Below, one piece after another: positions 1-22,804 of a stretch of 64,000 nt of DNA. The position numbers and the translations under genes were made by a program. The stretch covers positions 7,943,908 through 8,007,907 of the forward strand of contig NC_087082.1 in NCBI RefSeq assembly GCF_026151205.1, read 5' to 3'. The notes below the pieces were generated by a model that saw only the letters and a program-made list of their open reading frames with translations, was not told where the DNA came from and did not search any database. Position 1 is the stretch's first letter; every line of letters starts with the position of its first letter. This stretch comes from Bolinopsis microptera. Lineage: Eukaryota; Ctenophora; Tentaculata; Lobata; Bolinopsidae.

Positions 1-304
1 CAATCATTAAACGGTTGCAGATATAAAAACTTGGCTTAGGCCTTAGGCTAACTAAACTAGCTTTATTAGGGCATAGATTTAAGGCAAAATAAAAGAGGAA
101 CCCTCAACACCGTTTTGTTCACCTTTAACTTATTAAAGTATATAAACAAAATGGTGTACCTAAATGATTTTAGTCCACTGTCCAGAGTGAACACATCAAA
201 AACGACACATGGAAGTGCAAACTCAGCTAAAATTAGCAAATTAAGTGTTATCTTAATAGTAAGTAAATACATAGTTTACTCTTCAAGATGAGCAGGATAT
301 GTAC

Positions 305-3300
305 CTGTTGTAATGTCCCTTGTGTTTCTCAGAACACCCCTCAATTAACATAGCCTTCACAGCCTTGTAGTCAGCCAGCACTATCTTCAGTGCCTCGTTA
401 CAGAACTTGGGAGGGTCCAGGTTAGTTGGGGGCGCAGCCGTGTCACGGCGTGACTCACGTGCTCTGAAGCTCTGCGCTGACTGTGCTTTACGGAGTTCAC
501 GCACTTGTCGGATAACAGTTTGTACTAGCGTAAACAGGAGCGGCTCTCCTCTGAAACAAATGTTATTGAACTGGTAGCGTAGAGACCTTGATTATGTACT
601 AATTCTGTCTTTCGCTGACGCAAATTAGAAACTGATGTAATGGGCACACGCAATAAACCGTACTTGTCATTGTGAAGCTCTGAGAAGTTGGTGTCTTTAA
701 GAAGCTGTTTGAATAAACTCATTCTGACCTCCTGGTCCCCGGCAACGAGCGCGCAACACGGACCCTTCACCCAACAATCACAATAGGCTGTGTGTGACAG
801 GGTCTTTAACCTGAAAATGGATTTAGTAATACTACAATTCCGTACTATCTAATTTATAAACGTCAAAAGACCCGCTTTGGTAGATACTCCTGAACTAGTC
901 TGTATGTACGTGAGACGAGCGCGCTCATGGACATGCTCGAGATCGCATTACTAGTTTTTGGTGCTAAAATGCGAACTTTTGTATAGTTGATTATCAGAAA
1001 GACTCCGCGCGTTACGCGAATGTAGACCCAATTTGCAAACTCTCTGGGTTTCAGGCAGCATTTTGCCATGGTCAAATTACACCCAGCTACTAGAGTTAAA
1101 TAGATTTAACTGCCAAAACACAATTTTAACAGTTCACAAAATTACCCCGACAATATATGCATTAGAAACAGTTGACCCAGTATTTAAATTAGACTGCACG
1201 CATGGCCTGGATTGACCGGGACTGGATTAATATAATACACATCCATACGTCGGTTTATAGCCAAAAATCTCAAAATATTAAGTTCAAGCCATCTAAAGCG
1301 ACTATTGATCATGAACAAAATATGTAACAGGGAATTTTATGAGCTATGAATTTATAAATATGAGAAAGTTATATTAGCAAAATCATTAAAAGCTTTTCCA
1401 AGTACTCATTATTGGCTTACTTGCAATCGTGGCCAGCGTGACAGACTTTAGCACACTCACTACAACAACAGTATATCTCCATTAGACCACACGTTCTGCA
1501 CTCGTAGATATCCTGTAGTAGTAAGGGGGTGTGTCCAACCCCAAAAAAAACAAAAAACCCAACCCCGAAATGGGAATTTGAGGTAAAGTTGGGTATTTTG
1601 GGTTTTTTAAAGAAACAATGCTAGAATTCATTTTATTCACACCTAAATTCATTCGAGACCAAGTTTATATAAAATGTTATCTTCCATCATCCCCATTGCC
1701 AATAATTATGTGTCATTTGTATTATTTGGGGTTCCCTACTATGTTCACTGTTCCGGGTTCCCCACCTGCGTGATATACTAATAGTACTATGTTTACAGTG
1801 TGTTACCTGTGTGATGTGATGTTTGCCAGTCCAGGTGAAGCTGCAATTATCGTTATCACACAGCATGTATAAAGGTTGAGATATTGGAGTAGAGTCACTA
1901 GGACACAACAGTTCTTCTAGCTCCCGGCGTTTCTCAGTCTCGGACCGTGTGTCAGGTGTGGAGATGTCGTTGTACACTATATCGTAACAACCTGAATAGT
2001 GTTCCGGACATTAAACTAGAACTATTATAGAACTATCGTTATTATATATTACTAGAACGGTAGTTTGCTAAAACATATTGAATGTTTGTATCGTTTAAAC
2101 TGTTTCTCCTGACAGTAGTTTAGTATTTTAGTACTCACAATCGTAAATAGCGAAGGCAGCTGGGTAGGCCCTGTTTCTGACAGCGTACATGAAGGGAGTG
2201 TATCCGTTAGCGTCCCTGTGTTTCAGCAAGGAGTGTAGGTAGGGCTTAACATCAACATTCCTCAGCAGTAAAGTCAGGATATACAGCCCTGGGGAGGAGA
2301 GGTTAGTAGGGCTTAACATTAACATTCCTCAGCAGTTAAGTCAGGATATACAGTCCTGGGGAGGGGAGGTTAGAAGGGCTTAACATTAACATTCCTCAGC
2401 AGTAAAGTCAGGATATACAGTCCTGGGGAGGGGAGGTTAGAAGGGCTTAACATTAACATTCCTCAGCAGTAAAGTCAGGATATACAGCCCTGGGGAGGAG
2501 AGGTTAGAAGGGCTTAACATCAACATTCCTCAGCAGTAAAGTCAGGATATACAGCCCTGGGGAGGAGAGGTTAGTAGGGTTTAACATTAACATCCCTCAG
2601 CAGTAAAGTCAGGATATACAGCCCTGGGGAGGAGAGGTTAGTAGGGCTTAACATTAACATCCCTCAGCAGTAAAGTCAGGATATACAGCCCTGGGGAGGG
2701 GAGGTTAGTAGGGCTTAACATTAACATCCCTCAGCAGTAAAGTCAGGATATACAGCCCTGGGGAGGGGAGGTTATTGTTGGGGGATAACTTGGGGGGGGG
2801 GGGGGGGAAAGCAGTAAAGTCAGGATATACAACCCTGGGGAGGAGAGGTTAGTAGGGCTTAACATTAACATCCCTCAGCAGTAAAGTCAGGATATACAGC
2901 CCTGGGGAGGGGAGGTTATTGTTGGGGGATAACTTGGGGGGGGGGGGGGGGGAAAGCAGTAAAGTCAGGATATACAGCCCTGGGGAGGAGAGGTTAGTAG
3001 GGCTTAACATTAACATCCCTCAGCAGTAAAGTCAGGATATACAGCCCTGGGGAGGTGAGGTTAGTAGGGCTTAACATTAACATTCCTCAGCAGTAAAGTC
3101 AGGATATACTGATATACAGTCCTGGGGAGGAGAGGTTAGTAGGGCTTAACATCAACATTCCTCAGCAGTAAAGTCAGGATATACTGATATACAGTCCTGG
3201 GGAGGAGAGGTTAGTAGGGCTTAACATCAACATTCCTCAGCAGTAAAGTCAGGATATACAGCCCTGGGGAGGAGAGGTTAGTAGGGCTTAACATTAACAT

Positions 3301-6300
3301 TCCTCAGCAGTAAAGTCAGGGTATACAGCCCTGGGGAGGAGAGGTTAGAAGGGCTTAACATTAACATCCCTCAGCAGTAAAGTCAGGATATACAGCCCTG
3401 GGGAGGGGAGGTTAGTAGGGCTTAACATTAACATTCCTCAGCAGTTAAGTCAGGATATACAGCCCTGGGGAGGAGAGGTTAGTAGGGCTTAACATTAACA
3501 TTCCTCAGCAGTTAAGTCAGGATATACAGCCCTGGGGAGGAGAGGTTAGAAGGGCTTAACATTAACATTCCTCAGCAGTTAAGTCAGGATATACAGCCCT
3601 GGGGAGGGGAGGTTATTGTTGGGGGATAACTTGGGGGGGGGGGGGGGGGGGGGGGGAAAGCAGTAAAGTCAGGATATACAGCCCTGGGGAGGAGAGGTTA
3701 GTAGGGCTTAACATTAACATTCCTCAGCAGTTAAGTCAGGATATACAGCCCTGGGGAGGAGAGGTTAGAAGGGCTTAACATTAACATTCCTCAGCAGTAA
3801 AGTCAGGATATACTGATATACAGTCCTGGGGAGGAGAGGTTAGTAGGGCTTAACATCAACATTCCTCAGCAGTAAAGTCAGGATATACTGATATACAGTC
3901 CTGGGGAGGAGAGGTTAGTAGGGCTTAACATCAACATTCCTCAGCAGTAAAGTCAGGATATACAGCCCTGGGGAGGAGAGGTTAGTAGGGCTTAACATTA
4001 ACATTCCTCAGCAGTAAAGTCAGGGTATACAGCCCTGGGGAGGAGAGGTTAGAAGGGCTTAACATTAACATCCCTCAGCAGTAAAGTCAGGATATACAGC
4101 CCTGGGGAGGGGAGGTTAGTAGGGCTTAACATTAACATTCCTCAGCAGTTAAGTCAGGATATACAGCCCTGGGGAGGAGAGGTTAGAAGGGCTTAACATT
4201 AACATTCCTCAGCAGTTAAGTGGGGGGGGGAGAGGAGGCGGGGTCATCGATATTTGACCATAGGTTAAGGAATAAATAAATAAGCAAAATGGGCATCATT
4301 TTCATCATTTTTTGGCCAAAATCGAAAAACCAAAAATGCATTTTTCTGATACCATATCTCTATTGAGATGCTGTACTTGCTAATTAGAGGAAGGCGAACA
4401 CGATGTTTATTTTCACTAGGTAACTCAATTTTGACAAAAACTTGAGGAATAAATGGGCAATGGGGTCGCATCCCCCCGGCCCCCAATTTGTAGTGCTTAA
4501 TTGTAGGGAGCATCACGGCTCAAGACAGACTAAGTGAAACGAGGCAAATAACTGGTCAAAACTAAATGAAAGTAACCAACGTTTCGCCTTTTAATAGATC
4601 ACTTAGTAAAATACTTAGTAAAATAATTAGTAAAATACTAAGTAAAAGGGCCACTAGGCCTACTAAACACTACATAAACTAAACAAAGTTAATGGTAATT
4701 GTGAAGAGGCCTACCCTTATTGTTAGCCACTGAGCCCTTCTTGCCAAGTTTGGGAGAACCTTCCTGTGGTAGTCCTGACCAGGTGTCTGAAAGTTACAAT
4801 TGGTTAAGCAAGGGGGGGGGGGGGGGGGGGGGGCGGGGGTAGCAAGGATAAATAAAGAGTTAATAAAGTGTCAGTCAATTGAAGTGTAAAAGATAAGTAA
4901 GATGAGAATGTACCAGGAGAGGCAGTCCCTTCAGAGTTAGTGACCCCTACAGGATAGAATACTGCACGCTGCATCATATCCCGCAGAGAGAACGAAGGTG
5001 ACGCAAAACCACCTGAAATGAATTGGGTGATATCAATAACAAAACCACCTGAAATGAATTGGGTGATATCAATAACAAAACCACCTGAAATGAATTGGGT
5101 GATATCAATAACAAAACCACCTGAAATGAATTAGGTGATATCAATAACAAAACCACCTGAAATGAATTGGGTGATATCAATAACAAAACCACCTGAAATG
5201 AATTGGGTGATATCAATAACAAGGTGTAGAGTCAATAGTGTACACTGTTGTGTCTATACTAGTACTCTAGAAAGTGAACTTCTGGCCATCATTAGATAAC
5301 TAGCTGTTAGTTACTAGCTGGGATAATCTGCACACTGCACTCATTATACACTTATCTAATGTACATTGAAACCACTGAACACACCATTATACCAGAGATC
5401 ATACCTAAATTCGATAATGGCAGTATCGTGCATTTTCTCTATTTTTTATCAATAAACTTTCAAATTGTTACACAAATTTACGCCATTTTATTAAAATTCG
5501 CCGGACGACCAAATAAAATGCCTGACAAGTGTAAACAAAATAAAGACCCTACCTTGGTCCCCTATAACGGAGGCTGGTCTCTGTGGTTCACTGCTTGTGT
5601 CTGGTTTACCGTGCTTGTCGCTGCTTGGTATGCAGGTAGTCACCGCAACGTGCAGGATATTGTGGCTACACCCTACTGTTTCCAGCAGTATACTCTTATC
5701 TGCACAATAGTTAGTTACTTAATTATTAATCAATTAGTTACTTAATTAGTCGTAAAACAAATCGATAAATTCCTCACACAAATCACTACTTAAAGCACCT
5801 GTTTATTTACTGTAAGCTGTTTACCTGGAGCGTTGGGAAGCTCATTGAGTAGCACCATAACTGCAGCAACATTCATACTTCTTATCCGGGGTATGAGATA
5901 TGTTCTCTGAGTCACCAGCACCATCATGGAAACCTGTCATTAATGTGTTTTGTTAAGTTTATGTAATACCCAGTACCCAGTTTAAAATTACACATCAGAT
6001 TGAAAGAGGGATATTTTATAAATGCTGTAATAAGTAGCTTCCAAATGAGAAACCAGCAACAGCGTCGGTGGTTGAGTGGTACAATTCTCGCCTGCCACGC
6101 GGGAGGCCCGGGTTCGATTCCCGGCCGACGCATGTCTTTTAGTCGTATAAGTAGCATTATTTCCATCTGATATTATCAGAATAATATCTAAATAATTAGA
6201 AGTAGCCTGTACCTCATGGCTAGCTCCGTAGTGGGATCCGAACGCGGACACCTTTACAGGTGGTAGATTATTCCAGGAGATGTTCTTGATACCTCCTACC

Positions 6301-9300
6301 TCATCGTACGCTAGTGGAACTACTGCTCTGTTGTGGTCCTCTAGTATCAGGAAGTCACCCTGGTTAGTGCAACTGTTAAGTTTTTGTGCAATAAAATCAT
6401 GTTAATTACTTAGGATTATTTAAGGGTAGAATTGAAACTCAATATTAGCTCTATACCACTACTTCTATCGAATACTTATACTAATAATATGCAGATTGCA
6501 GCTATGGCTATTATAGTTACTAATCAACCATTTCTGAGTTGCACAGTAGTTGCTTTACTTTTAACAAAGTAACAATAACACGGTTAATATTAGTAAAATA
6601 ATTATATTTCAGCTGTTAGTAAAAATGTTTAATTTTAATTGTAAACTACTCTAGTAGCAGAGTACTACAAGAGTAAACATGAACTCACCTTGTTCTCAGT
6701 GTGTAATGAGTAAAGTTTGACAGGTTTTCTGTTGAGATACTGGAAGGAGTCTTGCGGAAAGAGGGCGGGAGAGTGGGGCTTACAGCTGGGGAGGGTGTAA
6801 TGTACTAGCTTTATACTCTGTGACCCCTGTACCATCGCCTGTAAGTAAATAGTAACCTTACACTCTGTATCACGTGTTAAACTGCCAAATACATTAGCGC
6901 AAGTCCTTAGTTTTGTGCAAGGAGCTAATAACATAGGTAGACAAAAAGAAACAAGCTATAAAGACAGTATGTGCCGTATAGCTAGCTGCAGACATATCAC
7001 ATACATACCACAAACATTCTGCGATTAAATTTATTTTGTTGATTGTAATGTTGTGACATTGCATAATTTATTGTAAATATAATATATGTTTCAGAATCAT
7101 GTAATGTAACGTGATGGAAATATATTAAGCGGGCATATCCTATCCAAACCCAGGATGCACGACATGAAGAATTTGTTTTAACTTAGTATGAAAAGCATCC
7201 ATACATACCGCGGCCCGGACAGTATTTTCCCAAAAAATACCCAAGTTGTAAACATTGAAACAAATTGAAAAATAATTATGCCTGCTCTACTTTCGTTAAT
7301 ATAAAGATCCTTATAATGCCGCTGACTGACCTGTATGCCTCTGTTTGAAGCGGTGAAAGCAGATAGTGTGTTTGGTACGTCTAGTTTATTGAGGGTCACG
7401 TGGCCGATCCTCTCTCCTGTTGAGGAGGGCACTCTGGCGTCCTCAACACAATGGATATCCTCTATTCTCAGTAACCTGATTAGGTGGTTTAAGAGAGGTT
7501 AAGAGCATATTTCAAATGAAGAAACTGGCTGGTAGCTGAATAGGAAAGTGTCTGGCCGAAAATTTTAAGATCGGAGTTCGAATAAACGCTACTTTTTCTT
7601 TTTCAACATTTGTTTAAATTATCGCCTTTTTCAAGTCGAATGACCAATGACCAGATTCCCAGCCACTTTTTAAATTTATCTCACCGGTGGTTTAAAAAAC
7701 GTCTAAATACAGCTACAGGGTGATCTTGCCATCACCTATTTAACTGCACCATGCGACAAATAGAGTAAAAATAATAGTGGGGATGTACAAACTACGAACC
7801 TGCAATTCTTAATGAGGTCAGCAGGGTCAGCTCCGTCTCCAGTAGAGTTGGCGGGTATAACAGCAGCGAACTTACCGTCTATCTTAACTACCTCGTGCAC
7901 AGGGGGTCCGTTATCCTGGGGGAGAGGGGTTATAGACCTGGGATAATGAGAACAATCATAGTCTCTTAGAAACTATACCACAAGACTGCATGTTCATCTC
8001 ACCTGAACTATAACACAAGACTGCATGTTCATCTCACCTGAACTATAACACAAGACTGCAGGTTCATCTCACCTGAACTATAACACAAGACTGCAGGTTC
8101 ATCTCACCTGAACTATAACACAAGACTGCACATGCAGGTTCCTCTCACCTGAACTATAACACAAGACTGCAGGTTCCTCTCACCTGAACTATAACACAAG
8201 ACTGCAGGTTCATCTCACCTGAACTATAACACAAGACTGCAGGTTCCTCTCACCTGAACTATAACACAAGACTGCAGGTTCATCTCACCTGAACTATAAC
8301 ACAAGACTGCAGGTTCATCTCACGTGAACTATAACACAAGACTGCAGTTTCATCTCACCTGAACTATAACACAAGACTGCAGGTTCCTCTCACCTGAACT
8401 ATAACACAAGACTGCAGGTTCCTCTCACCTGAACTATAACACAAGACTGCAGGTTCATCTCACCTGAACTATAACACAAGACTGCAGGTTCATCTCACCT
8501 GAACTATAACACAAGACTGCAGGTTCATCTCACCTGAACTATAACACAAGACTGCAAGTTCCAAGTAACCTCACTACCCCATTCCTCTCTGCCGCTCATC
8601 ACCTCGAACCTAGCTTCCTTGTTGCCTTCCCACAAGTCCTCCAATAGGACCCCGACACAGGGTGTTCCCTTCCTCACACAGTAACCGTGTGCTCCGATGT
8701 GGTACAGGGGTCGTCTATTTAGTGATACCTGCGGCGATGAGAGGGTGACACCTTTATAGTTATACAGATATAATTAACCTTGTTCAAAAAATATCAATCA
8801 CATGAAAGTCATGAATAATACCGCAAATGTGAGCTAGTGCCATGTAACTGTGCGCTAGTAATATTATTACCTTGCTCCCCACCACTATCTGTTTAGTCGG
8901 TTTCTGGGCACTACCGGAAGCACTGGGAGTACTAGTACTTGCTTTAGTCTTGCTCTTACTTACTCCACTCTTGTCTTTTGTCTCACTTCTCACCGGGTAG
9001 TTCCCACTGTTCATTATTTATTTGTCAATAAATTGTCTTCATTTTGTTAATTCAAAGTATAATCTTTAAAATGTTATGTTATTGTTTCCTACCAAAAAAA
9101 CTGATATGAAGCACAGTATCGAATCAAAATGGTATGAGAACTTAAATTAATATGTAAGGACTGTAGACACTCCCAACCAGTATAATATAATATATAATAT
9201 ACTGGAATACAATATACTCACAACCAGTAGAGCTGCCCCTGTTTAGTAGATAGCACAGTAAAGAAGTCAGTAGATACCATAGAACTGATTTGAGTATTAC

Positions 9301-12300
9301 GTAACTCTGGGAACTCCCTGCATGGCATCTGGAAAAGGGGAGATTATATTGAGATTGTAAAGGGAGGGGGAGACAGGTAGATTAGGAAAAAGCAAATATA
9401 TTCACTTGATAAAAAATAGCTTAAAGTTCTTTTAATTAAGTGCTTTAATTAAGTGCTTTATAAATCTAAAAATAGATTCCGGAAAATTACGATTGGTAAT
9501 GTTTTCTAAATACTATGTCAATCACCTTCGAATTTTGCTGTCAAACAAAACTCCCGATGAAAGACAGACAGAGAAGATTTTCAATATTTACATCATCATT
9601 ATCTGTTTCAAATCATAAATAAAAAATATACGGGCCCTGAAGTGATACCTGTATCAAGTTAGCTATCTTGTCCAGTTCAGGATCCACAAGTACTGCCATT
9701 TGGTTATCCTCAGTGAGAATAGTAGTGCGAGACAGTGATACAGCAAGGTGGGATATTCTCTTGTCGGAGAGGTTTAGGTCGGGGAGGGGAGGGGTGTAGA
9801 GGGGTGGGTCTTCTGTTATCATGTCTCCTGGCTGATATAGTAACATTTAGTTATTGAATAACTTAACATATTCCGTGAATAGCACATTGTTTTTAAGTTG
9901 GACCATGTATATACTATATATAGGTATAAAGTACCAGCATATCAATAAGGTAATCTAAGGAAGCATAGCACACACTTACTTGATCGGAATGAACAGGTTC
10001 ACTATCCCAACTCCAGCGATGTAACTTGCCGTCCCTGTCTAGAGCCAGCAGGAAGGAGTACATAGCCCCCATGTGTGTGAAATACAGGTCACTAGGGTAC
10101 CACTCTACTTCCTCGCAGATCACATCTGTAGTGCGAGACTCTTCTTTCTGGTCCGATACTACTGACTGAAATACAAAAATACTGATAGCTTGGAAATTAG
10201 AAGTTAGAACGGCTAACACCACCAATATATAATAGAATAGGGACTTATTAGTATTGCTGTAACACTAGGGGAAACCCCATCAACTAGCTGGTAACTAGGG
10301 GAAACCCCATCAACTAGCTGGTAACTAGGGGCAACCCCATCAACTAGCTGGTAACTAGGGGAAACCCCATCAACTAGCTGGTAACTAGGGGCAACCCCAT
10401 CAACTAGCTGGTAACTAGGGGCAACCCCATCAACTAGCTGGTAACTAGGGGCAACCCCATCAACTAGCTGGTAACTAGGGGAAACCCCATCAACTAGCTG
10501 GTAACTAGGGGAAACCCCATCAACTAGCTGGTAACTAGGGGAAACCCCATCAACTAGCTGGTAACTAGGGGCAACCCCATCAACTAGCTGGTAACTAGGG
10601 GAAACCCCATCAACTAGCTGGTAACTAGGGGCAACCCCATCAACTAGCTGGTAACTAGGGGCAACCCCATCAACTAGCTGGCAACCCCATCAACTAGCTG
10701 GTAACTAGATCAACTAAATAGTAACTAGATCAACTAGCTGGTAACTAGATCAACTAGCTGGTAACTAGATCAACTAGCTGGTAACTAGGGTCAACCCCAT
10801 AAACTAACTGGTAACTAGGGGCAACCCCATCAACTAGCTGGTAACTAGGGGAAACCCCATCAACTAGCCTAGCTGGTAACATGAAGTAACTCACCCAGGT
10901 ATCCGGCTTATCGGCAGTGCTGGAAGAAGTGCCGGGTTGAGAGGAAGCGCGTCTGTCAGATATGCGCTCCGTTAGGGATCTTCTGTCACGGAGGAGTGAG
11001 GAAAAGGTGTCCCAGCTGGAGGTGGAGACAGAGGGGATCCCTCTACTTGTTGCTGGCCGAGTAACCCTGTCAATTTACAATAATTAAATGAAAATAGATA
11101 CTATCAGTGTTATATCTAAAATTGATGATTTTACAATAACAATAAATTGACTCCGTAGTCAAATTGTAATAATCCCACAAACTCTCACCCCTCAGCAGTA
11201 GTGGTAGAAGATGAAGGAGTAGAGTCAGTAGATCTTCTGTTGAGAAGAATATTTCTGGTAGAAGAGGTTGTAGTGGAGCTCGAACTAGATGAAGAGTTGC
11301 GCAACTGTGGGAAGTTTATAGCTACCGTCTCACTGTCAGGGTAGAGGAAATCCAGGTCTATACCGTCTTCAACTCCTGGTTCACATTTATCACATTATAA
11401 CATTTCGAATCCTTTTAAATTGGTCAAACACATATTTTGATATCTATATACCACCACAGCTACAGCCACAGATTTATTCAACATTTTCGACAAGAATGAA
11501 CAACTCACCACTGTCAAACCAGGATACTACATCATCTCCTGACACAACGAGGGAGTCACTCCCTTCCTCCTCCCCATCATCATCATCTCTACTCAGCAAG
11601 TTGTTAACTGCTTCATTGATATCCAACCCTGTTCTCTGCAGCTCCTTTATTATGGCAGCTCGTGATTTACCCTGCAGTACCATTTGGCACTGTTGTATAG
11701 ACTCTTCTGGAACCTGGAAGTTTACATTTTCATGAGGAAACTAAGAAACTTTGCGTATAGATCAAAGTTGATAGGTACGATGAAATAAAACAGCAATGTC
11801 ATATTTAAATTATTTTAAAAGATAGAATTAAAGGATTTGCCCGGGTAAATACCTCTGAAGCAGGGACAGTTGGTCTGAAGGCTAACCATGACCTGCCGGC
11901 TGGTGTCCGGCCACGCACTAACGTCCCTCTCCTTCCCCGCCTTTGAGAAAACAGCCTCCTAAGTGTCCTGTTATGGGGTTAACGTTAGTTTGGTGGGAGC
12001 TAGGCTTTACATTAACGCCAACTAACGTTAAAATTAAATATTACCATCGGTGGATACGACTGATTTACATTGAGAGCTCATCTTTACTTAGTCTCTTAGT
12101 TTATATTTGCGCCCACGGATTCTAACAAACGCGACGGTTCAACTGGAGGTAAGACAATTTATTGCAAGTCATTGAAAAAGCCCTGTTGAATCAACTTGAG
12201 AATTTTTACAACAAATACTTCTGACCTTAAGTGCGAGAATGGACAGGCTTAATACGTGAATTAAATGAACTTACCTCATGCTGTGAAGTATGTTGAAATG

Positions 12301-13172
12301 AACTTACCTCATGCTGGGAAGTATGTTAAAATGAACTTACCTCATGCTGTAAAGTATGTTAAAATAAACTTACCTCATACTGAGAAGTATGTTAAAATGA
12401 ATTTACCTCATACTGGGAAGTATGTTAAAATGAATTTACCTCATGCTGTAAAGTATGTTAAAATAAACCTACCTCATACTGAGAAGTATGTTAAAATGAA
12501 CTTACCTCATACTGGGAAGTATGTTGTCTGGTGCAGCATCCCAACTGTCTGAATCTTTCTTCTGAGCCTTAGAGCTTCTCCCTTCCAACTCTGCTGTCGA
12601 TGTAAACTTGCTGGCATTGCCAGAACTTGCCTCTGTCTTGACTGTGTATTTGTAGCGACAAATTCTGCCATTCGTAAGTAGAAATACTATATGAGTATTG
12701 CTGATTACGCACTGCATAACTTCTGGCAATGATCCAAATATACTGAAAAAAGATTTTTTTCATGATGGAATTTTAAAGACAATTTTACGGAGAAGTTAAG
12801 TAAAATTAATGATTTTTTTGCTTTAAATGCATTGCATTCAACACGTTTTTTGTATGAAGCTGTGGTTAAATCTCAGTAAAGGACGATAAGTAAAGATTAG
12901 ATTGGATAAATGAGTTATACCTCTGTTCATCATCATTGCTGGTTGCAAGATGATCTTTCAATCTGAAAATATTGATCTTTATTATATTATACATTAAGAA
13001 GATATTATGCATAAAATATTCGGAAGCAACACTGCAATATTATTTGAGGATGCTTAATTGCTGAAGCAGGAGTGATACGAATTTTCTAAAACATTTCTTG
13101 AACTTACTTTTCAATGAAATACTTGACAGTGTTATCTGGATAAGATTGAGCAACCAAATGTACATCTCCCAT
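305..13172 (-). CDS. UBR5: UBR5-type HECT E3 ubiquitin ligase, 5' half, 25 exons, partial
   Basis: UBR5 (fly hyd) is a very large nuclear E3 ligase of the N-degron pathway. Exons, 5' to 3': 13108-13172, 12921-12962, 12506-12742, 11853-11958, 11509-11713, 11189-11375, 10895-11066, 9980-10165, 9649-9831, 9222-9328, 8871-9006, 8534-8728, 7800-7915, 7331-7475, 6689-6838, 6213-6359, 5825-5933, 5553-5699, 4914-5012, 4715-4786, 2139-2288, 1807-1991, 1421-1512, 664-810, 305-550. All have GT/AG borders and every phase closes, giving about 1208 codons with no stop. Order matches the family: N-terminal segment, UBA (about residues 155-200), propeller-like region (about 340-790), UBR box (about 1027-1090). 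The start ATG (13170-13172) gives MGDVHLV, aligning with the human N-terminus. The family is about 2800 residues long, so MLLE and HECT domains lie beyond the left edge. One exon donor (7800) is a weak GTTCGT. Confidence 0.95.
664..1991 (-). CDS. UBR5: UBR-box exons of UBR5 (1807-1991, 1421-1512, 664-810)
   Basis: These three exons encode the zinc-binding UBR box that reads N-terminal degrons. The first ends with [13 protein letters not shown], the second reads [17 protein letters not shown] and then a [13 protein letters not shown] segment, and the third begins [13 protein letters not shown]. The Cys/His spacing follows UBR5 closely, so zinc binding should be intact. The third exon continues into a helix-rich segment ([13 protein letters not shown]). 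The 608-bp intron at 1513-1806 and the one at 811-1420 show no other gene. Confidence 0.95.
2246..4220 (-). repeat. 67-bp minisatellite built from a UBR5 splice acceptor
   Basis: About 28 tandem copies of a 67-bp unit fill the intron upstream of exon 2139-2288. On the gene strand each unit carries a branch-point-like CTAAC, a pyrimidine tract, CCCCAG, and then the first ~46 bases of the exon (GGCTGTATATCCTGAC onward). Repeats join the real exon sequence at GTTAAGCCCTA. Some copies have an extra TGATATACAG segment. Three carry a G-tract variant (near 2790, 2935 and 3630). The blocks at about 3080-3520 and 3780-4190 look like a higher-order duplication. Confidence 0.93.
4221..4714. other. rest of UBR5 intron 20, no gene
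   Basis: Between the array and exon 4715-4786 there is AT-rich intron sequence. It holds a short run of GTAAAATACTTA-like units near 4610-4650. No coding or RNA feature is visible. A G-tract of about 22 bases occurs in the next intron near 4812. Confidence 0.6.
5004..5221 (-). repeat. 36-bp minisatellite built from a UBR5 splice acceptor
   Basis: Six copies of a 36-bp unit lie directly upstream of exon 4914-5012. On the gene strand each unit ends ATTCATTTCAG and begins GTGGTTTTG, which is the true acceptor plus the first bases of the exon. Thirty-six bases are twelve codons, and the frame of the exon stays open through the array. Use of an upstream acceptor would therefore add 12-residue blocks without a frameshift. 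The copies differ by one base in one unit. Confidence 0.93.
6062..6132 (+). tRNA. tRNA-Gly (GCC)
   Basis: The 71-nt sequence folds as a canonical cloverleaf: acceptor GCGTCGG pairs with CCGACGC, the anticodon loop is CTGCCAC with GCC, and the T-arm GGGTTCGATTCCC is consensus (B box GGTTCGATTCC). The A box is GTGGTTGAGTGG. It has no intron and no encoded CCA. It lies antisense within the UBR5 intron between exons 5825-5933 and 6213-6359. Confidence 0.95.
7970..8556 (-). repeat. 35-bp minisatellite built from a UBR5 splice donor
   Basis: About 17 copies of a 35-bp unit follow exon 8534-8728. On the gene strand each unit contains the last bases of the exon and its donor: GTGTTATAGTTCAG joined to GTGAGATGAAC. 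The exon itself ends in the first copy. The repeated CAGGTGAG is a strong donor. The unit is not a multiple of three and contains stops, so use of a downstream donor would truncate the protein. Copies alternate C/A at one position and one has a short internal duplication near 8108. Confidence 0.93.
10261..10880. repeat. 30-bp minisatellite in UBR5 intron 7
   Basis: About 20 copies of a 30-bp unit (GGTAACTAGGGG, then AAACCCCATCAACTAGCT) start 15 bp inside the intron after exon 10895-11066. Variants have GAAACCCC or GCAACCCC. Each unit can fold locally because GGGG and CCCC flank a short loop, and CTAG recurs at the borders. Unlike the other four arrays in this gene, this one does not include the splice site. 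Confidence 0.9.
11509..11713 (-). CDS. UBR5: UBA-domain exon of UBR5
   Basis: The exon encodes a ubiquitin-associated domain: [19 protein letters not shown] followed by [18 protein letters not shown], then an acidic stretch. The match to the UBR5 UBA is near identical at the core helices. It is the clearest single identifier of the gene. The acidic run is typical of the family immediately after the UBA. Confidence 0.96.
12264..12527 (-). repeat. 33-bp minisatellite built from a UBR5 splice donor
   Basis: Eight copies of a 33-bp unit follow exon 12506-12742. On the gene strand the unit reads ACATACTTCCCAGTATGAG then GTAAGTTCATTTTA, that is the exon 3' end and a consensus GTAAGT donor. The real exon ends in the first copy. 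Some distal copies have decayed donors (GTAAATTC, GTAGGTTT). Reading past the first donor meets a stop at once. Confidence 0.93.
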
Positions 13173-14607
13173 TACCTTTAGAATGAGCAGTGAGTTTTGG
13201 TAACAAAGTGCTGTATTTTAACTCGTTCCACATAATAGTAAGGGGAAAAGTGGCATTCCGTTGGATTTGAATGTTCACAAGGATTTCTCAACGGAATATG
13301 GTAGTTAAGACCCCTACGAACATAATTAGACTTGTTGCCAATTTTGTATCTCAACAGAAACACCACTTTTACCACTTTTTACCACCTTTGTACCACCTGT
13401 CTGGTTTGCCAAATATCTTTAGTTGTGAACGTCGTAAAAGGCTGCAAATTAACCTAGAATGTTTATCTTATCAAGGAGTAAAACTTTTGTGTGAAAAATT
13501 TTTACATTGGACAATCAGCTAATTGGATAATTACCAATTAGTTAATCACCAAAAAAAGTGAAAATTTTTTATTGGCTCAAAATGATTGAAATCGTTTGAA
13601 ACACGGAGAAATGTAGTTTTTAGAAAAACTTCAAAAATTTTTCACTTAAAAATTTTTTTCGAGGAAAAAAGTTTGAAAATTAAAAAATTTTTTTTTCCGC
13701 CAAAAGTGATCGAATTGCATGAAACGTGGATAAAAATGCTTTGCAGAAAAACTTCGAAGATTTTGAGATAGGGGAATACTAAAATCATCAATATTTGAAG
13801 TTGGAGTTCAGTAAATCTCGACATATTTTAGTAATTAGGAATAGCTTAGCGGAAAGGGCTGAACCTGAAAAAGGTTAACCACACAATATTAGAGTTTCAT
13901 AACTAATTACAATACAGCTTTTATTCCACAAATTCCACATAAAGAAACAGCACAAAAGGACCATTTAAGATCGAACCGATTTTACCTGCTGTACTATCAT
14001 TTTATTGATTTCAATGATCAAAACCTCTGTACCGTCAATCTTGCCAATCTATACCGGGTATCTGAATGTACCGGACCTTTTATTTACCTCTATAATTAGA
14101 CCCAGTTGTGCAAGAAATGCGATTTCTCACAGGGGTTTCTTTTAACTGTGCACTTTTTGTCACTCTCGCAACTCGCAAGAGGCCCGGTATTATAGGGGGG
14201 TATAGGAAGCGAGTGTAAATATACCTTCCATCATCCACTGTGCCCCCACTGTGGCTTTTTTGTATTGTGAATGCGCATGCCGCTTCGTTTGCTATGCCAG
14301 ATACCTCGAATAACCCCCATATGTCATTGCCAGGGTCGGGATAGAGCTGGAGATAGCATTGAAAAGTTGCTAGAAATAGCTAGATTTAGAGTAAACTGGT
14401 GGTAGCTGGGTGGTGCTAGCATGGATGTAGCAGAACGTAGCTACACGGGGTTTCATTGGAGTTGGTTATTTTAATGGCCAAAGAGTGCCGGAACTAAAGT
14501 TACTTAAGATTGCAGTTGAGGGGCAGTGTAAACCACGGTGTAGTCAGGGACACAGAGCTACAGTGCAGGAGTACTGCAAGTGCAAAAGAACAGTGCAAGT
14601 GATACAG

Positions 14608-15408
14608 TGGGGGGAATGCAACGTCAATTAATGTCAGTATTCCATAAAAACCCCAAACTGACATTGACATTAATTGACATTAATTGACATTAATTGACAT
14701 TAATTGACATTAATTGACATTAATTGACATTAATATGTCTTGAAATTTGAGATTATCATTATTCGATAAATATTCAATACAAGATATTCACGTCTATCAT
14801 GTAAGTTAGACCGGTTCAAAAAAACAAAATGTCCTTGAATAATTATGAGTATGTTCTTATCTGTTGATCCTTAGGTTCAAAGACCACAAAACAAATTTCA
14901 GCTTCCAACTCTTCCATCTTCGGTCCCCACCGGCCACGCCCATATTTTATTGGTTTCTTATACAGGTAAAATATCTAGAATCGGCTTTTTTAATATGAAG
15001 GAGTAATGTTAGCTGTTTAAGATTCGTTATTCAAGTATAAATGTCATGAAGGCATTTCGTTTAATGTGGGTTTTAAGTTCTGATGATGTTGAGAACCACG
15101 CCCTTGGATGGCCACGCCCATTTAAGAAAATTAAATTTCGGGAAACCGTATTATTTTAGTTTTATTGTTTAATGATCTGAATTTTTTTCACATTTCACAT
15201 TTCCATATATTGTGATAGTAGTGAATAAATTGATGATATAAACGTTCTAAAGTGCTAAAAATATGGTAGAACTACATAATCTCTGGTCGAAAAATATCGT
15301 GTCAATTAATGTCAGTATTCCAAAATTTTGCAAAACTGACATTGACATTAATTGACATTAATTGACATTAATTGACATTAATTGACATTAATTGACGTTG
15401 CATTCCCC
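14608..15408. mobile_element. 0.8-kb MITE inserted in the foldback's left arm
   Basis: The ends are inverted copies of GGGGAATGCAACGTCAATTA, each followed by tandem 10-bp units (TTGACATTAA-type, about 5-7 copies). An exact 8-bp duplication TGATACAG flanks it (14600-14607 and 15409-15416). The opposite foldback arm has the uninterrupted sequence with a single TGATACAG (15947-15954, reverse strand). Eight-base duplications are typical of hAT-like elements. The interior has no coding capacity that I can see. Confidence 0.92.
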
Positions 15409-15445
15409 TGATACAGTATGCAACAGTAAAACGCCGAAGAAGGAG

Positions 15446-15909
15446 ATAAGATTGTGGCTGCAGAGGAGGAGAGGAGCTGGAACCTGATTTTGTTTGGGTT
15501 GAAAGAAGAGTAGGAAGAAGAGTTTCCTGTTCTGGTAACTGCATTTTTGGAAGAGGTGGGGTGAGAACTTATTTTCAAGCGACAAGGGTGGGCTGGAAGC
15601 AACCAGGTACAGCTATCCGACCTATTAAGATCACCGTCCTGAGCTTAACAGCCTTTCATCAGAATCTGATGAAAACAGAGAGACTGACCCACCCTTTTTA
15701 GATTGATTGATCAAAGTGAGTCTCTTTAGCCCTCTTCTTCTTTAGAGCTTTAGGTTAGTGATCAAACTCTTCGCTACTCGCTCTTCACTGGATCTATCAG
15801 GACAGATTCACATCTTTTTAGGTCTCAACCAGCCTTAGTTTTCCTGTTTTCATCATGTAGTACGTTCTGCTACCTCCATTTTAGCACCACCCAGCTTCCA
15901 TCAGTTCAC
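15446..15909. other. spacer of the 4.1-kb foldback
   Basis: This is the unpaired centre between the arms. Part of it (about 15830-15925, reverse strand) resembles the arm segment at 14376-14460, so the arms have an internal repeat. No gene is visible. Confidence 0.6.
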
Positions 15910-17336
15910 TCTAAGTCTAGCTTCGTCGGCGTTTTACTGTTGCAGACTGTATCAATTGCACTGTTCTATTGCACTTGCAGTACTCCTGCACTGTAGCTCT
16001 GTGTCCCTGACTACACCGTGGTTTACACTGCCCCTCAACTGCAATCTTAAGTAACTTTAGTTCCGGCACTCTTTGGCCATTAAAATAACCAACTCCAATG
16101 AAACCCCGTGTAGCTACGTTCTGCTACATCCATGCTAGCACCACCCAGCTACCACCAGTTTACTCTAAATCTAGCTATTTCTAGCAACTTTTCAATGCTA
16201 TCTCCAGCTCTATCCCGACCCTGGCAATGACATATGGGGGTTATTCGAGGTATCTGGCATAGCAAACGAAGCGGCATGCGCATTCACAATACAAAAAAGC
16301 CACAGTGGGGGCACAGTGGATGATGGAAGGTATATTTACACTCGCTTCCTATACCCCCCTATAATACCGGGCCTCTTGCGAGTTGCGAGAGTGACAAAAA
16401 GTGCACAGTTAAAAGAAACCCCTGTGAGAAATCGCATTTCTTGCACAACTGGGTCTAATTATAGAGGTAAATAAAAGGTCCGGTACATTCAGATACCCGG
16501 TATAGATTGGCAAGATTGACGGTACAGAGGTTTTGATCATTGAAATCAATAAAATGATAGTACAGCAGGTAAAATCGGTTCGATCTTAAATGGTCCTTTT
16601 GTGCTGTTTCTTTATGTGGAATTTGTGGAATAAAAGCTGTATTGTAATTAGTTATGAAACTCTAATATTGTGTGGTTAACCTTTTTCAGGTTCGGCCCTT
16701 TCCGCTGAGCTATTCCTAATTACTAAAATATGTCGAGATTTACTGAACTCCAACTTCAAATATTGATGATTTTAGTATTCCCCAATCTCAAAATCTTCGA
16801 AGTTTTTCTGCAAAGCATTTTTATCCACGTTTCATGCAATTCGATCACTTTTGGCGGAATAAAAATATTTTTTAATTTTCAAACTTTTTTCAGTCTCGAA
16901 AAAAATTTTTAAGTGAAAAATTTTTGAAGTTTTTCTAAAAACTACATTTCTCCGTGTTTCAAACGATTTCAATCATTTTGAGCCAATAAAAAATTTTCAA
17001 ATTTTTTGGTGATTAACTAATTGGTAATTATACAATTAGCTGATTGTCCAATGTAAAAATTTTTCACACAAAAGTTTTACTCCTTGATAAGATAAACATT
17101 CTAGGTTAATTTGCAGCCTTTTACGACGTTCACAACTAAAGATATTTGGCAAACCAGACAGGTGGTACAAAGGTGGTAAAAAGTGGTAAAAGTGGTGTTT
17201 CTGTTGAGATACAAAATTGGCAACAAGTCTAATTATGTTCGTAGGGGTCTTAACTACCATATTCCGTTGAGAAATCCTTGTGAACATTCAAATCCAACGG
17301 AACCCTTAAATCGACCACTTTTCCCCTTACTATAAT

Positions 17337-18826: not shown

Positions 18827-21718
18827 TTACCCTTGGCCTTGTGGCTCCAAGTTAAGATCTAGACTGTTTATATCAACAATGTTTTTTCTCGCACCTCTGT
18901 CTCCACGGAGAGAAATCACTGTTGTTCTGAGGATTTCAAAGCGAAGGCGCTTTCTTATGTATCCTACAGCGTCTGAGTACCTCTGGCCAGTGTGGTACTC
19001 CATCTTACTGGCCAGCTTCTTGACCAGTCTCTCAGCTTCACCACCCATTCCACCAGAAGTCGAGAACACTAAAGGTGTGAAGCTTCCTTTCTCCACTTCA
19101 AGAACCCTTGCATTGTAACATCGCTTTTTCTCATTTTCATGGGACAGGTACATTGCTGGTATCGGTTTGCTTGCATTGGAGGGGGCTGGGGCATGAAATA
19201 CCCTTACATCAAAAAATGCCCTCTCTGAAGCATTCCAAATCGATCTTGCAGAAATGTCCAGCCTGGCTTGGTCTCCTAGGACTGTTCCCTTTGGTAACTG
19301 TAGACCATCAACTGGAAGAAGAACTGGCTCAGTCTGCACATCCTTGCATTTCACAGTTCTCATTAGTTCTGCAAAGGTGTCTCTCAGCGAGTTGTGCCGC
19401 AGTGACACATATCCACCAAGTTTGCAGATGAGCGCATGGTTTGCTGAGTATTTCTGGCCACACGTACATGTTTTAGGGCAGTCCTTTAAGTTCAGGTTGT
19501 ATCTGAGAGCTATTGCATCTGAGAACTGTTGTTTATTCATCAGATATCCATACTCTTTTAAAGGTAGTGCTGTTAACCAAGCACTTGCCCCTTTCTCAGC
19601 CGCTAGTTGGAACATCAACTTTGCCAGTGGTGTTGACTCGAGCTCCTGGCGTATTTCTGCTTGTTTTTGTCGATAAAAGAGATTTCGTTCAGTCGTTATC
19701 TCAGTTTTCACTCCTTTACTATGTCTCCAGTCCTCTGTGTAGTTGTCTATCTGCTTGAGAATAGCTTCTTTAAGGGGTTTTGTGGCTCTACATGAGAAAT
19801 TGTACTCTCGGTCTGCCATTTCCATCATAACTGGTATACCCAATCCTCCATATCTTGGTGGTAGAGCCATTATGTTCCTTAGTTCATCAGTGCAGCTAAA
19901 CAGCCTGTTAATGATAGCTGGGATAAACTCATCACGTGTTACTTGTTCTAGAGGAGTGAGCCTATCTGCAACTCCTGGGGTAGTTCTGCACACATAGTTC
20001 CATCTTTTACTAAGCCCATACATGTATGCACTGTATGCTATTTGAGGTTCTCTTGATGCTATATCACTTAACTGTTTAAGATCACGACACCATTCTTGAA
20101 CTTTTTCCTCAATGAAAGCCTCTTTTCCTTGGTCTGTTCCGATGAAGCTGCCCAGATATCGTCGACCAATGCTTGTCACATTGACATCTGGGAATAGGGT
20201 TCTTGCCTTCTCTTCGTGCTCAGGCTTGACTATCACCCATGTTTTAGAAGATTTAGGGTTGTATCCAAAGAGTGGTCCTTTAATACAGAGGTTATCCCAC
20301 CACTTCCTTATTTCCTCCAGTTTTCCCCCAGCAGCAGAGTCATCAGCATACCAGATCTGAGTCACCTTTCTCTCAATGTTTCCTGCATCAATCAATGGTA
20401 TTGTACCACAGGCATAAAATCCCATGGCAGGTGGATCACCTTGTGTGGTCCCTTCTTCACTAAAAAGATGCTCATCTCCTCCTGCAATGAACAGTCTAGC
20501 AGGCATTCTGTAGGTGTTCATAATGTAAGTAGCAACTTCTGGACAAACGATGTTCATGTTGTTGAGAGCAGCCTCTCGGTTCAGCAAGTTGAATGCATTC
20601 TCTGCATCCACTAAGATGATAGCTTCAGTTTCAGGGTCTTCAAAGCAGTCCCTTGCAGCATGGACTGCTGCTTCCACTCCTCCCTGAAGACCAGCACAAA
20701 CTTGAATAGGAGCAGTGGCTCCAACCAGATCTTTCTGTAGGAGGGTCATTACTGTTTTCCCTATTATCCTTCTTAAGACTTCACCTATGCCTACTGGCCT
20801 GACTCCAGGCTTTTTATCCAGGGGGACAAGTCGACATGCTGTCAATGAGGTCAACAGCGTTGGATCCAAATTCCGGACACATAGTTTCCTTGCTATCCCT
20901 GCTATGGCATTACATAGATCCTCACACTTCTTACCAAACTGTTTAGAACACAGTAGTCTCTTCCATGCATCCGCATCCATCCCTGAAGGCCCTGCAGCAC
21001 CCTGTACTCTCTTTGCTGCTTGTCTTATCGATTCCCCGTCAATACTGTCGAATATAACTGGCTCTACCCTCCTCACTGGTCCACTCAGACAGCTTCCCTT
21101 TGATGCAGGTGATGCCTTGGGATGCTTCTCTTTCAGCACTTTAATCACATCTGGAGTAGGTTCAAGAATCCCGGTGGCATTTTCACCAATCCACCGCATT
21201 GCTGCACTGACTTTTCCTTTCATCATGAGTCGAGTGAAGACTCTCTCAACATGGCCATGTTTATGCTTCCCCTTTCCCAATCTCCTCTGAATCTCCTGTC
21301 CTTCTCGCAGCAGCTCTTCTAGCTTACCTGCCTGCCACAAAACAAGTCTTCTCTTCAACACTTCAGTGTGTTCCTTTGCTTTGGACCTCTTTGAGGGTTT
21401 CTGCAACAGCAGTGATGGCATTATCATCAAAAGGGTGATGGTCACTGATTCCATAGCACTGCCTGATGTGAAATTGTTGGCCACTTTAGTCATTTCTTCG
21501 ATGAATGCTTTTCCTGCCGCCCCTGAGGGAAGCAAAAATATGTTTCTTCTCCATTTAACTATAACACCATATATTTCCTCACATTTTGTCAGAACTTCCC
21601 AACTATTCCATGGTCCTAATTTCAATCGAGATGGATCACTTACATTATCATGATCTGGGAAACAGCACTCCTTTGCCTCTTCTTTGATTGATTGAAATAA
21701 ATTTTCGTGCACATACAT
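18827..21718 (-). CDS. reverse transcriptase with C-terminal zinc motif and restriction-like endonuclease
   Basis: The 963-codon frame has the RT core: motif A VDAENAFN (370-377), TTQGDPPAMGFYA (424-436), and the catalytic YADD (457-460). A Cys/His cluster CTCGQKYSANHALICKLGG (751-769) is followed by a segment with LDISAR (820-825), FFDVRVF (835-841) and LEVEKGS (873-879). That order fits the C-terminal CCHC plus PD-(D/E)XK-like endonuclease of R2/R4/CRE-grade non-LTR elements, and no APE endonuclease is seen. The first ATG is not the natural start, because similarity continues upstream into the PHD frame. It copies RNA into DNA at a nicked target. Clade is uncertain. Confidence 0.88.
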   Translation of the reverse strand: MYVHENLFQSIKEEAKECCFPDHDNVSDPSRLKLGPWNSWEVLTKCEEIYGVIVKWRRNIFLLPSGAAGKAFIEEMTKVANNFTSGSAMESVTITLLMIMPSLLLQKPSKRSKAKEHTEVLKRRLVLWQAGKLEELLREGQEIQRRLGKGKHKHGHVERVFTRLMMKGKVSAAMRWIGENATGILEPTPDVIKVLKEKHPKASPASKGSCLSGPVRRVEPVIFDSIDGESIRQAAKRVQGAAGPSGMDADAWKRLLCSKQFGKKCEDLCNAIAGIARKLCVRNLDPTLLTSLTACRLVPLDKKPGVRPVGIGEVLRRIIGKTVMTLLQKDLVGATAPIQVCAGLQGGVEAAVHAARDCFEDPETEAIILVDAENAFNLLNREAALNNMNIVCPEVATYIMNTYRMPARLFIAGGDEHLFSEEGTTQGDPPAMGFYACGTIPLIDAGNIERKVTQIWYADDSAAGGKLEEIRKWWDNLCIKGPLFGYNPKSSKTWVIVKPEHEEKARTLFPDVNVTSIGRRYLGSFIGTDQGKEAFIEEKVQEWCRDLKQLSDIASREPQIAYSAYMYGLSKRWNYVCRTTPGVADRLTPLEQVTRDEFIPAIINRLFSCTDELRNIMALPPRYGGLGIPVMMEMADREYNFSCRATKPLKEAILKQIDNYTEDWRHSKGVKTEITTERNLFYRQKQAEIRQELESTPLAKLMFQLAAEKGASAWLTALPLKEYGYLMNKQQFSDAIALRYNLNLKDCPKTCTCGQKYSANHALICKLGGYVSLRHNSLRDTFAELMRTVKCKDVQTEPVLLPVDGLQLPKGTVLGDQARLDISARSIWNASERAFFDVRVFHAPAPSNASKPIPAMYLSHENEKKRCYNARVLEVEKGSFTPLVFSTSGGMGGEAERLVKKLASKMEYHTGQRYSDAVGYIRKRLRFEILRTTVISLRGDRGARKNIVDINSLDLNLEPQGQG

Positions 21719-22097
21719 ACATTCGAGTACATACTTCTACCACAGTATCATCGTCCTTTGATGTTGTTTTTAGGCATCTTGTACATAGATATTCATCATC
21801 GCTTTCACTCAGTTTCTTGTATTCTGTTTTACTGATCTTCAAGCAAGTCCTATGATGCCATGAGTGACATCTTTCGCATAGCAGGCCATCGTCATACTCA
21901 GTCACTTTAAGATCGCATATTGGACAAGTCTCGGTAAGTGTCCTCAAATCCTTGATTGCTTGAGAGACAGTTTTATTTGTTTCTTCTGGGTCTGTACATT
22001 GATCTGGATTAGAAAGCTTACTAGAATCGGTATTTTTGTTCTCAACTGATTTAGATCTGGTTTTCATCATTTCCAACCCAAAAACGGGGACCACCAC
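21648..22097 (-). CDS. PHD-finger N-terminal part of the retrotransposon protein
   Basis: A C4HC3 PHD finger is visible: CPICDLKVTEYDDGLLCERC, then HSWHHRTCLKI and a final CTRC. PHD fingers bind histone tails and occur in some non-LTR elements. The frame overlaps the RT frame by 71 bp. At 21711-21722 the sequence has a tandem TGTA; one unit fewer would put PHD and RT in one frame. A programmed frameshift at this point is the alternative. The likely functional start is the MMKTRSK methionine pair. Confidence 0.82.
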   Translation of the reverse strand: MVVPVFGLEMMKTRSKSVENKNTDSSKLSNPDQCTDPEETNKTVSQAIKDLRTLTETCPICDLKVTEYDDGLLCERCHSWHHRTCLKISKTEYKKLSESDDEYLCTRCLKTTSKDDDTVVEVCTRMYVCARKFISINQRRGKGVLFPRS

Positions 22098-22804
22098 TGT
22101 TTTCCGAGTCGATTACCAACAGGAGCTGTAGCTTACCGCTGACAGTCCCTAATGGATGCGAGTCTCCTTAACAGTAGTGGATCCGAATTTGGGATCTGAT
22201 GGAGTAATCTCGACACCAGAGGGTTTTACAGAATATTTCGGTATAGTGGTTTTATTATAATAAAATAATTTGTGATATGTGTACAAGTGACACTAAAAAA
22301 TGTACAAAATACACAATTTTTACTTTACACAAAAGTTTGGTTTACATTTACTAACTACAGTGTACAGCGTACATGAAAAGATAACTTACCGAATTGTTTA
22401 ATACTAAATACATATTAAGTCTGACGTTGTTCAATGAATTAGCCACGAAAATGTTCAAATTGTGCAGGACTACAATGAACATTTTGCTGAGTTTCTCCAG
22501 ACGGCTTTTATCGGAGTGCAGGTTATTTACTAGGTTATGCACAAACCAGGCCAACATTTTTGTTTTGTGTCAGCCGCGCTACCAGGTTGTAGAGTATGTT
22601 CAATATTTTTTAAAAAATCATACACAGTTACTAATATCAGAGTCCAATCTAGATATATGCAAACGTTAAACACCACAGTTGAGCCGTCAAGTACCGTTTA
22701 AGTGAACAACGAGACACAAGCTTTAGGTGTAATTTTGTAAATCACTTTTATGGATGGATGATTTAGTAAATTGTTGTAGAAAATCACAAATATATCGTTA
22801 TGTC

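Follow-up and report, generated by a model that had tools for sequence, protein, structure and literature searches.

Why would a gene carry tandem repeats built from copies of its own splice junctions? The question is raised by UBR5 of the ctenophore Bolinopsis microptera, whose first 25 exons lie in the 64,000-nucleotide stretch of DNA analyzed here (the window; C11:7943908-8007907 of a genome searched as 264.65 Mb in 232 contigs). Five tandem arrays in this gene repeat a segment that crosses an exon-intron border, and two further borders are present in one extra copy. The arrays are probably 'mirages', ordinary minisatellites that arose by random tandem duplication and are tolerated since splicing takes the exon-proximal site. 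The pattern looks like common repeat growth to which splicing is indifferent, not like the work of a special mechanism.

Tandem copies of UBR5 splice junctions

UBR5 is encoded on the minus strand, from window position 13172 to C11:7935658, in 37 exons totaling 7,233 bp and 36 introns totaling 14,189 bp (median 294 bp). Exon borders follow from the unbroken reading frame, from alignment with human UBR5 (PDB) and from the annotated NCBI protein of B. microptera. The corrected exon map keeps a single frame through to the stop, and human UBR5 matches the translated exons with E-values of 8.4e-61 and 8.4e-127. The joined exons were translated and used as a protein query. With scoring limited to residues 380-1230, the first match was a B. 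microptera UBR5-like isoform X2 (NCBI) with 100% identity there, and the second a Mnemiopsis leidyi protein with 86% identity. The annotated B. microptera protein lacks the first 43 residues of our model; at each of the seven junctions with an array or a two-copy duplication it continues without any repeat insertion.

The sequence-only reading of the window had described four UBR5 arrays as copies of two acceptors and two donors, each with the real exon as its terminal unit; frame, human UBR5 and annotated protein agree that these arrays straddle real junctions (Table 1; array coordinates, unit lengths and copy numbers from Tandem Repeats Finder). With the array at E31 and the duplications at E26 and E27, the copied junctions of UBR5 come to three donors and four acceptors, two of the latter having one extra copy only. 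A poly-G insertion occurs in identical form in three units of the 67-bp array (window 2760-3660), which suggests that blocks of several units have been exchanged within it.

Table 1. UBR5 exons, arrays and duplications (window positions unless prefixed C11)
Feature	Position	Strand	Relation to the gene
UBR5 portion in window, exons E1-E25	1..13172	-	rest of gene below window, to C11:7935658
Exon E21	2139..2288	-	acceptor at 2288
Exon E19	4914..5012	-	acceptor at 5012
Exon E12	8534..8728	-	donor at 8534
Exon E3	12506..12742	-	donor at 12506
67-bp array, 28.5 copies	2239..4221	-	unit nearest the exon is the E21 acceptor, with 50 of its 67 nt exonic
36-bp array, 6.1 copies	5004..5222	-	exon-proximal unit is the E19 acceptor; 9 of 36 nt exonic
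35-bp array, 16.7 copies	7971..8561	-	first unit joins the final 26-28 nt of E12 to the donor; 28 of 35 nt exonic
33-bp array, 8.0 copies	12263..12525	-	first unit joins the final 20 nt of E3 to 13 intron nt
Fifth array, 20-bp core	C11:7940782-7941181		E31 donor, outside window; 18 of 20 nt exonic
Two-copy acceptor duplications	beyond or at window start		E26 and E27
30-bp array	10264..10868	-	intron E7-E8, 26 intron nt from donor; junction not straddled (negative case)
Second non-straddling array	C11:7941391-7941616		UBR5

The exonic parts of the E12, E21 and E31 units are conserved in Mnemiopsis UBR5, and those of E12 and E21 also align with human UBR5, the end of E12 with the human residues WSLREVVFVED. 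Because the exonic part is conserved outside Bolinopsis, the exon is older than the array at these three junctions. This refutes for E12, E21 and E31 the idea that an array was born within the intron and the splice site moved into it later. Small indels in Mnemiopsis at the E18/E19 and E3/E4 borders favor that idea, and at E3 and E19 either the exon or the array may be the older; as an account of the arrays, we regard a moved splice site as very improbable.

Mirages in amphioxus and in other Bolinopsis genes

The sequence-only reading knew of no description of several such arrays at the junctions of one gene. Two amphioxus reports precede it: they describe as 'mirages' tandem repeats across 5' and 3' exon-intron borders in Adh3, globins, TnC and PGBD5, with AG/GT in many copies, unstable length and seemingly undisturbed splicing (PMC3087553, PMC3902484). 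The UBR5 arrays resemble these mirages (in Adh3, BflGb6/BflGb9, TnC and PGBD5) as minisatellite-like duplications whose unit spans the border, that occur at both 5' and 3' borders and that keep the splice dinucleotide in many copies. They differ in occurring in Ctenophora, in number, with five arrays and two further duplications in a single gene, and in length, reaching up to 28 copies, compared with the 3 and 6 units of two BflGb6 haplotypes (PMC3087553). We found no report of mirages in ctenophores in the literature, an absence that is weakly tested.

Similar arrays occur in other Bolinopsis genes. On C1, five of the seven donor-word arrays among the first matches listed are donor mirages: two lie at paralogous exons (open frame, no Pfam match), two at sushi-like exons whose Pfam score is below the curated cut-off, and one at a dynein heavy chain-like exon (E 2.9e-13). 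One of the remaining two is unrelated to a junction and the other stops 1-2 nt before an acceptor AG. Among the first 100 of the 270 places listed for the acceptor word lie 17 arrays; of 14 examined, seven resemble acceptor mirages and seven do not. The exons beside three of these mirages have firm homology (ubiquitin-conjugating, 1.3e-14; glutathione reductase, 3.2e-13; P4-ATPase, 2.9e-10), two have weak homology (GMP synthase, 0.0058; ammonium transporter, 0.052) and two have an open frame only. The paralogous exons, L034 (C1:36576-37703) and L040 (C1:761375-761862), share the same 32-bp donor mirage, which may be older than the gene duplication. The dynein-like exon (L037, C1:884550-885330) itself also contains an in-frame tandem duplication.

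Random duplicated segments are expected to place their ends uniformly relative to the junction, and the exonic share of the unit fits a uniform spread at the 16 junctions measured (mean 0.56, Kolmogorov-Smirnov p 0.57), although 16 are few. The measurement leaves out E26, L040 and L053, counts 25 nt of exonic match at L035 where there are 26, a difference of no consequence, and includes a value for L043 (5 nt) that is shortened by an indel in the adjacent copy. At these 16 junctions, donor and acceptor units alike have their larger part upstream of the junction: all seven donor units are mostly exonic (0.56-0.91), and the nine acceptor units average 0.40.

A founding duplication of a 20-90 bp segment would chance to straddle an exon-intron border, its ends falling at random. 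The array would then grow on the intron side by slippage or unequal exchange, since expansion toward the exon would harm the protein and be selected against. Splicing would use the exon-proximal site, presumably because it is the sole site joined to the whole exon, and the remaining copies would leave with the intron, in which they could change neutrally. The cluster in UBR5 may be a chance extreme in a minisatellite-rich genome whose introns, in UBR5 at least, are short.

Preference for junctions, spare sites and intron gain

We scored junction copying with 16-base probes, counting a match of 13/16 or better as a copy. An own-intron copy was found for 7 of 72 UBR5 junctions (9.7%), compared with 5 of 2520 in a control against the other UBR5 introns, so the junction copies are real. 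Among 16-mers from UBR5 intron interiors, 292 of 8555 (3.4%; 715 of low complexity were skipped) had a second copy. Elsewhere in the genome, exons were called by a predictor trained on UBR5 alone. At threshold 25 it recovered 15 of 35 held-out exons exactly and called nothing outside exons; at threshold 20 it recovered 18 and made 2 calls that overlapped no exon. A threshold of 22 was used. The sample, a small one, combined the window beyond 13500 with 19 loci (L004-L022), of which two lie downstream of UBR5 and the other 17 were placed at round coordinates fixed in advance; it yielded 133 predicted exons with unrepeated interiors. Copies were found for 4 of 261 predicted junctions and for 255 of 6244 intron-side interiors (4.1%), placing junctions below interiors (p 0.035). 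Three of the four junction matches fall inside arrays listed, and the exons are predictions of which some may be false. The same pipeline recovered all seven cases in UBR5, where it scored 70 junctions, and found 7 of 12 mirage loci known elsewhere; it missed L035, L037, L043, L049 and L053 and can undercount.

Minisatellites are dense in this material, 57 arrays making up 17.0 of 264 kb with UBR5 included. Units bearing AGGTRAG were found in three of the 57 arrays (0.45 expected), all in UBR5. One sampled array, of 22 copies of a 52-bp unit (L012:3901-5048), lies between two CDK-like exons, which we take to be CDK8-like, and ends near the acceptor without containing it.

Several of our own counts weigh against random, neutral growth. 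UBR5 junctions are copied 2.8-fold above UBR5 intron interiors (p 0.011, which is too kind since UBR5 was picked because of its arrays), and UBR5 exceeds the genome sample in copied junctions (7/72 vs 4/261, Fisher p 0.0027). Genome-wide, there are 2610 triple tandem matches for 19,232 occurrences of the donor word AGGTRAGT (13.6%), compared with 197 for 15,615 occurrences of the reversed word (1.3%); the acceptor word TTTCAGGT occurs 15,918 times with 270 triples, compared with 8,674 and 28 for its reverse. Finally, array copies differ less from the exon copy in their exonic than in their intronic part at E21 (0.047 exonic, 0.140 intronic) and E31 (0.037 and 0.117), for which neutral growth gives no explanation.

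The excess within UBR5 and the donor-word counts, together with the finding that most of the inspected donor-word arrays are donor mirages, favor an alternative in which tandem duplications start preferentially at junctions, and chiefly at 5' splice sites, transcription-linked breaks being one conceivable cause. The sequence-only reading had suggested a bias of this kind; it is seen within UBR5, a preselected gene, but is reversed in the genome sample and is not established. The uniform placement of duplication ends relative to the junction also speaks against it, as does the absence of AGGTRAG from all 50 sampled arrays outside UBR5. We rejected the word counts as proof (apparent enrichments, scaled by single-word counts, of 11-fold for the donor word and 5-fold for the acceptor word) after control words showed that large arrays and microsatellites drive the matches. 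The word GATGRTGA had 694 triples, as opposed to 10,934 for its reverse, and GATGARGT had 538, as opposed to 759, all without scaling; with raw counts varying so enormously, match totals are dominated by a few large arrays. Among the matches listed, distinct arrays were no denser for TTTCAGGT (17 in the first 116 Mb) than for GATGARGT (17 in the first 112 Mb), again unscaled, and in this comparison no acceptor excess is seen. The control also includes mirages to some degree: splice-like sequence is present in some control-word arrays (C5:751661, C2:6851659 and C4:2035292), one of them being the acceptor array of L049. A genome-wide donor excess is possible, and the word counts hint at it but are not safe. 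On balance, we consider a junction preference an unlikely origin of the UBR5 arrays, and are slightly more doubtful still that splice junctions, chiefly 5' ones, are preferred minisatellite birth sites in ctenophores generally; if they were, many introns would grow outward from their own splice sites.

Selection might instead have retained the copies as spare splice sites that buffer against mutation, a cause that the sequence-only reading had also raised. GT or AG is intact in 57 of 67 array copies, the three mirage donors are the 2nd, 3rd and 8th strongest among 36, and the lower exonic divergence at E21 and E31 points the same way. Retention of GT or AG may, however, simply reflect recent copying, and the mirage acceptors, with ranks 3, 8, 16 and 26 of 36, are nothing special. 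Divergence from the exon copy is equal in the exonic and intronic parts at E12 (0.055 and 0.062) and E3 (0.079 and 0.077), so these copies are not maintained as coding sequence. Above all, splicing to a spare copy would lead to a premature stop at 60 of the 63 such sites in the five UBR5 arrays, which makes the copies decoys for splicing to ignore rather than spares, and we give buffering hardly any credence. All three exceptions belong to the 36-bp E19 array, where they are the spare acceptors closest to the exon and leave the frame open to the end; judging by the frame, a splice shift there could add a 12-residue protein repeat.

An equally remote prospect is that the arrays are traces of introns gained when AGGT-containing sequence was duplicated, a route proposed for amphioxus globins (PMC3087553). 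As in that route, the duplicated segment contains splice signals, but in UBR5 the duplication involves a single border of an intron that already exists: each of the seven introns holds a copy of one junction only, and a common origin of the two intron ends was not found. The junction segment never recurs at the opposite junction (at 12/16 or better) in these seven introns, and among all 36 UBR5 introns a 12/16 match of this kind occurs just once, in the array-free intron E15-E16. The AG|GT arrangement reported at three of the four junctions is correct but not special to arrays, being the usual donor consensus and occurring in UBR5 at 20 of its 36 donors and 9 of its 36 acceptors. Donor mirages do set an exon end beside GT as recursive (ratchet) splice sites do; scored from sequence alone, the repeated exon ends make acceptors of 5.3, 4.5 and -4.1, below the mean of 8.3 for real acceptors, and recursive splicing thus lacks positive support. 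Introners likewise place repeated sequence at introns, but UBR5 junction probes are private to one intron, as the cross-intron control indicates, and a genome-wide search with only the 35-bp array gave one weak match elsewhere (66%). The sequence-only reading is thus partly supported, its anatomy being right and its mechanisms mostly not supported.

Surroundings and significance of the arrays

Three other features of the window lie in the gene or upstream of it. A tRNA-Gly (gcc) gene is located on the opposite strand within intron E16-E17 (window 6062-6132, plus strand). An inverted repeat at window 13256-17302, with arms of 408 and 944 nt that are 99% complementary, starts 84 nt upstream of the UBR5 start codon and looks like a fold-back element. 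Further on, an open frame of 969 residues on the minus strand (window 18827-21736) presumably encodes a non-long-terminal-repeat reverse transcriptase, and the frame upstream of it (21648-22112) is one that we take to be cysteine-rich and PHD-finger-like.

The arrays in UBR5 extend mirages from lancelets to a comb jelly, so that they are no lancelet peculiarity. They also carry a warning, in that raw counts of repeat words may point to a splice-site bias left unconfirmed by a placed control. Finally, UBR5 offers a natural test in which splicing chooses one site among up to 28 near-identical neighbors, where nearly all wrong choices would truncate the protein.

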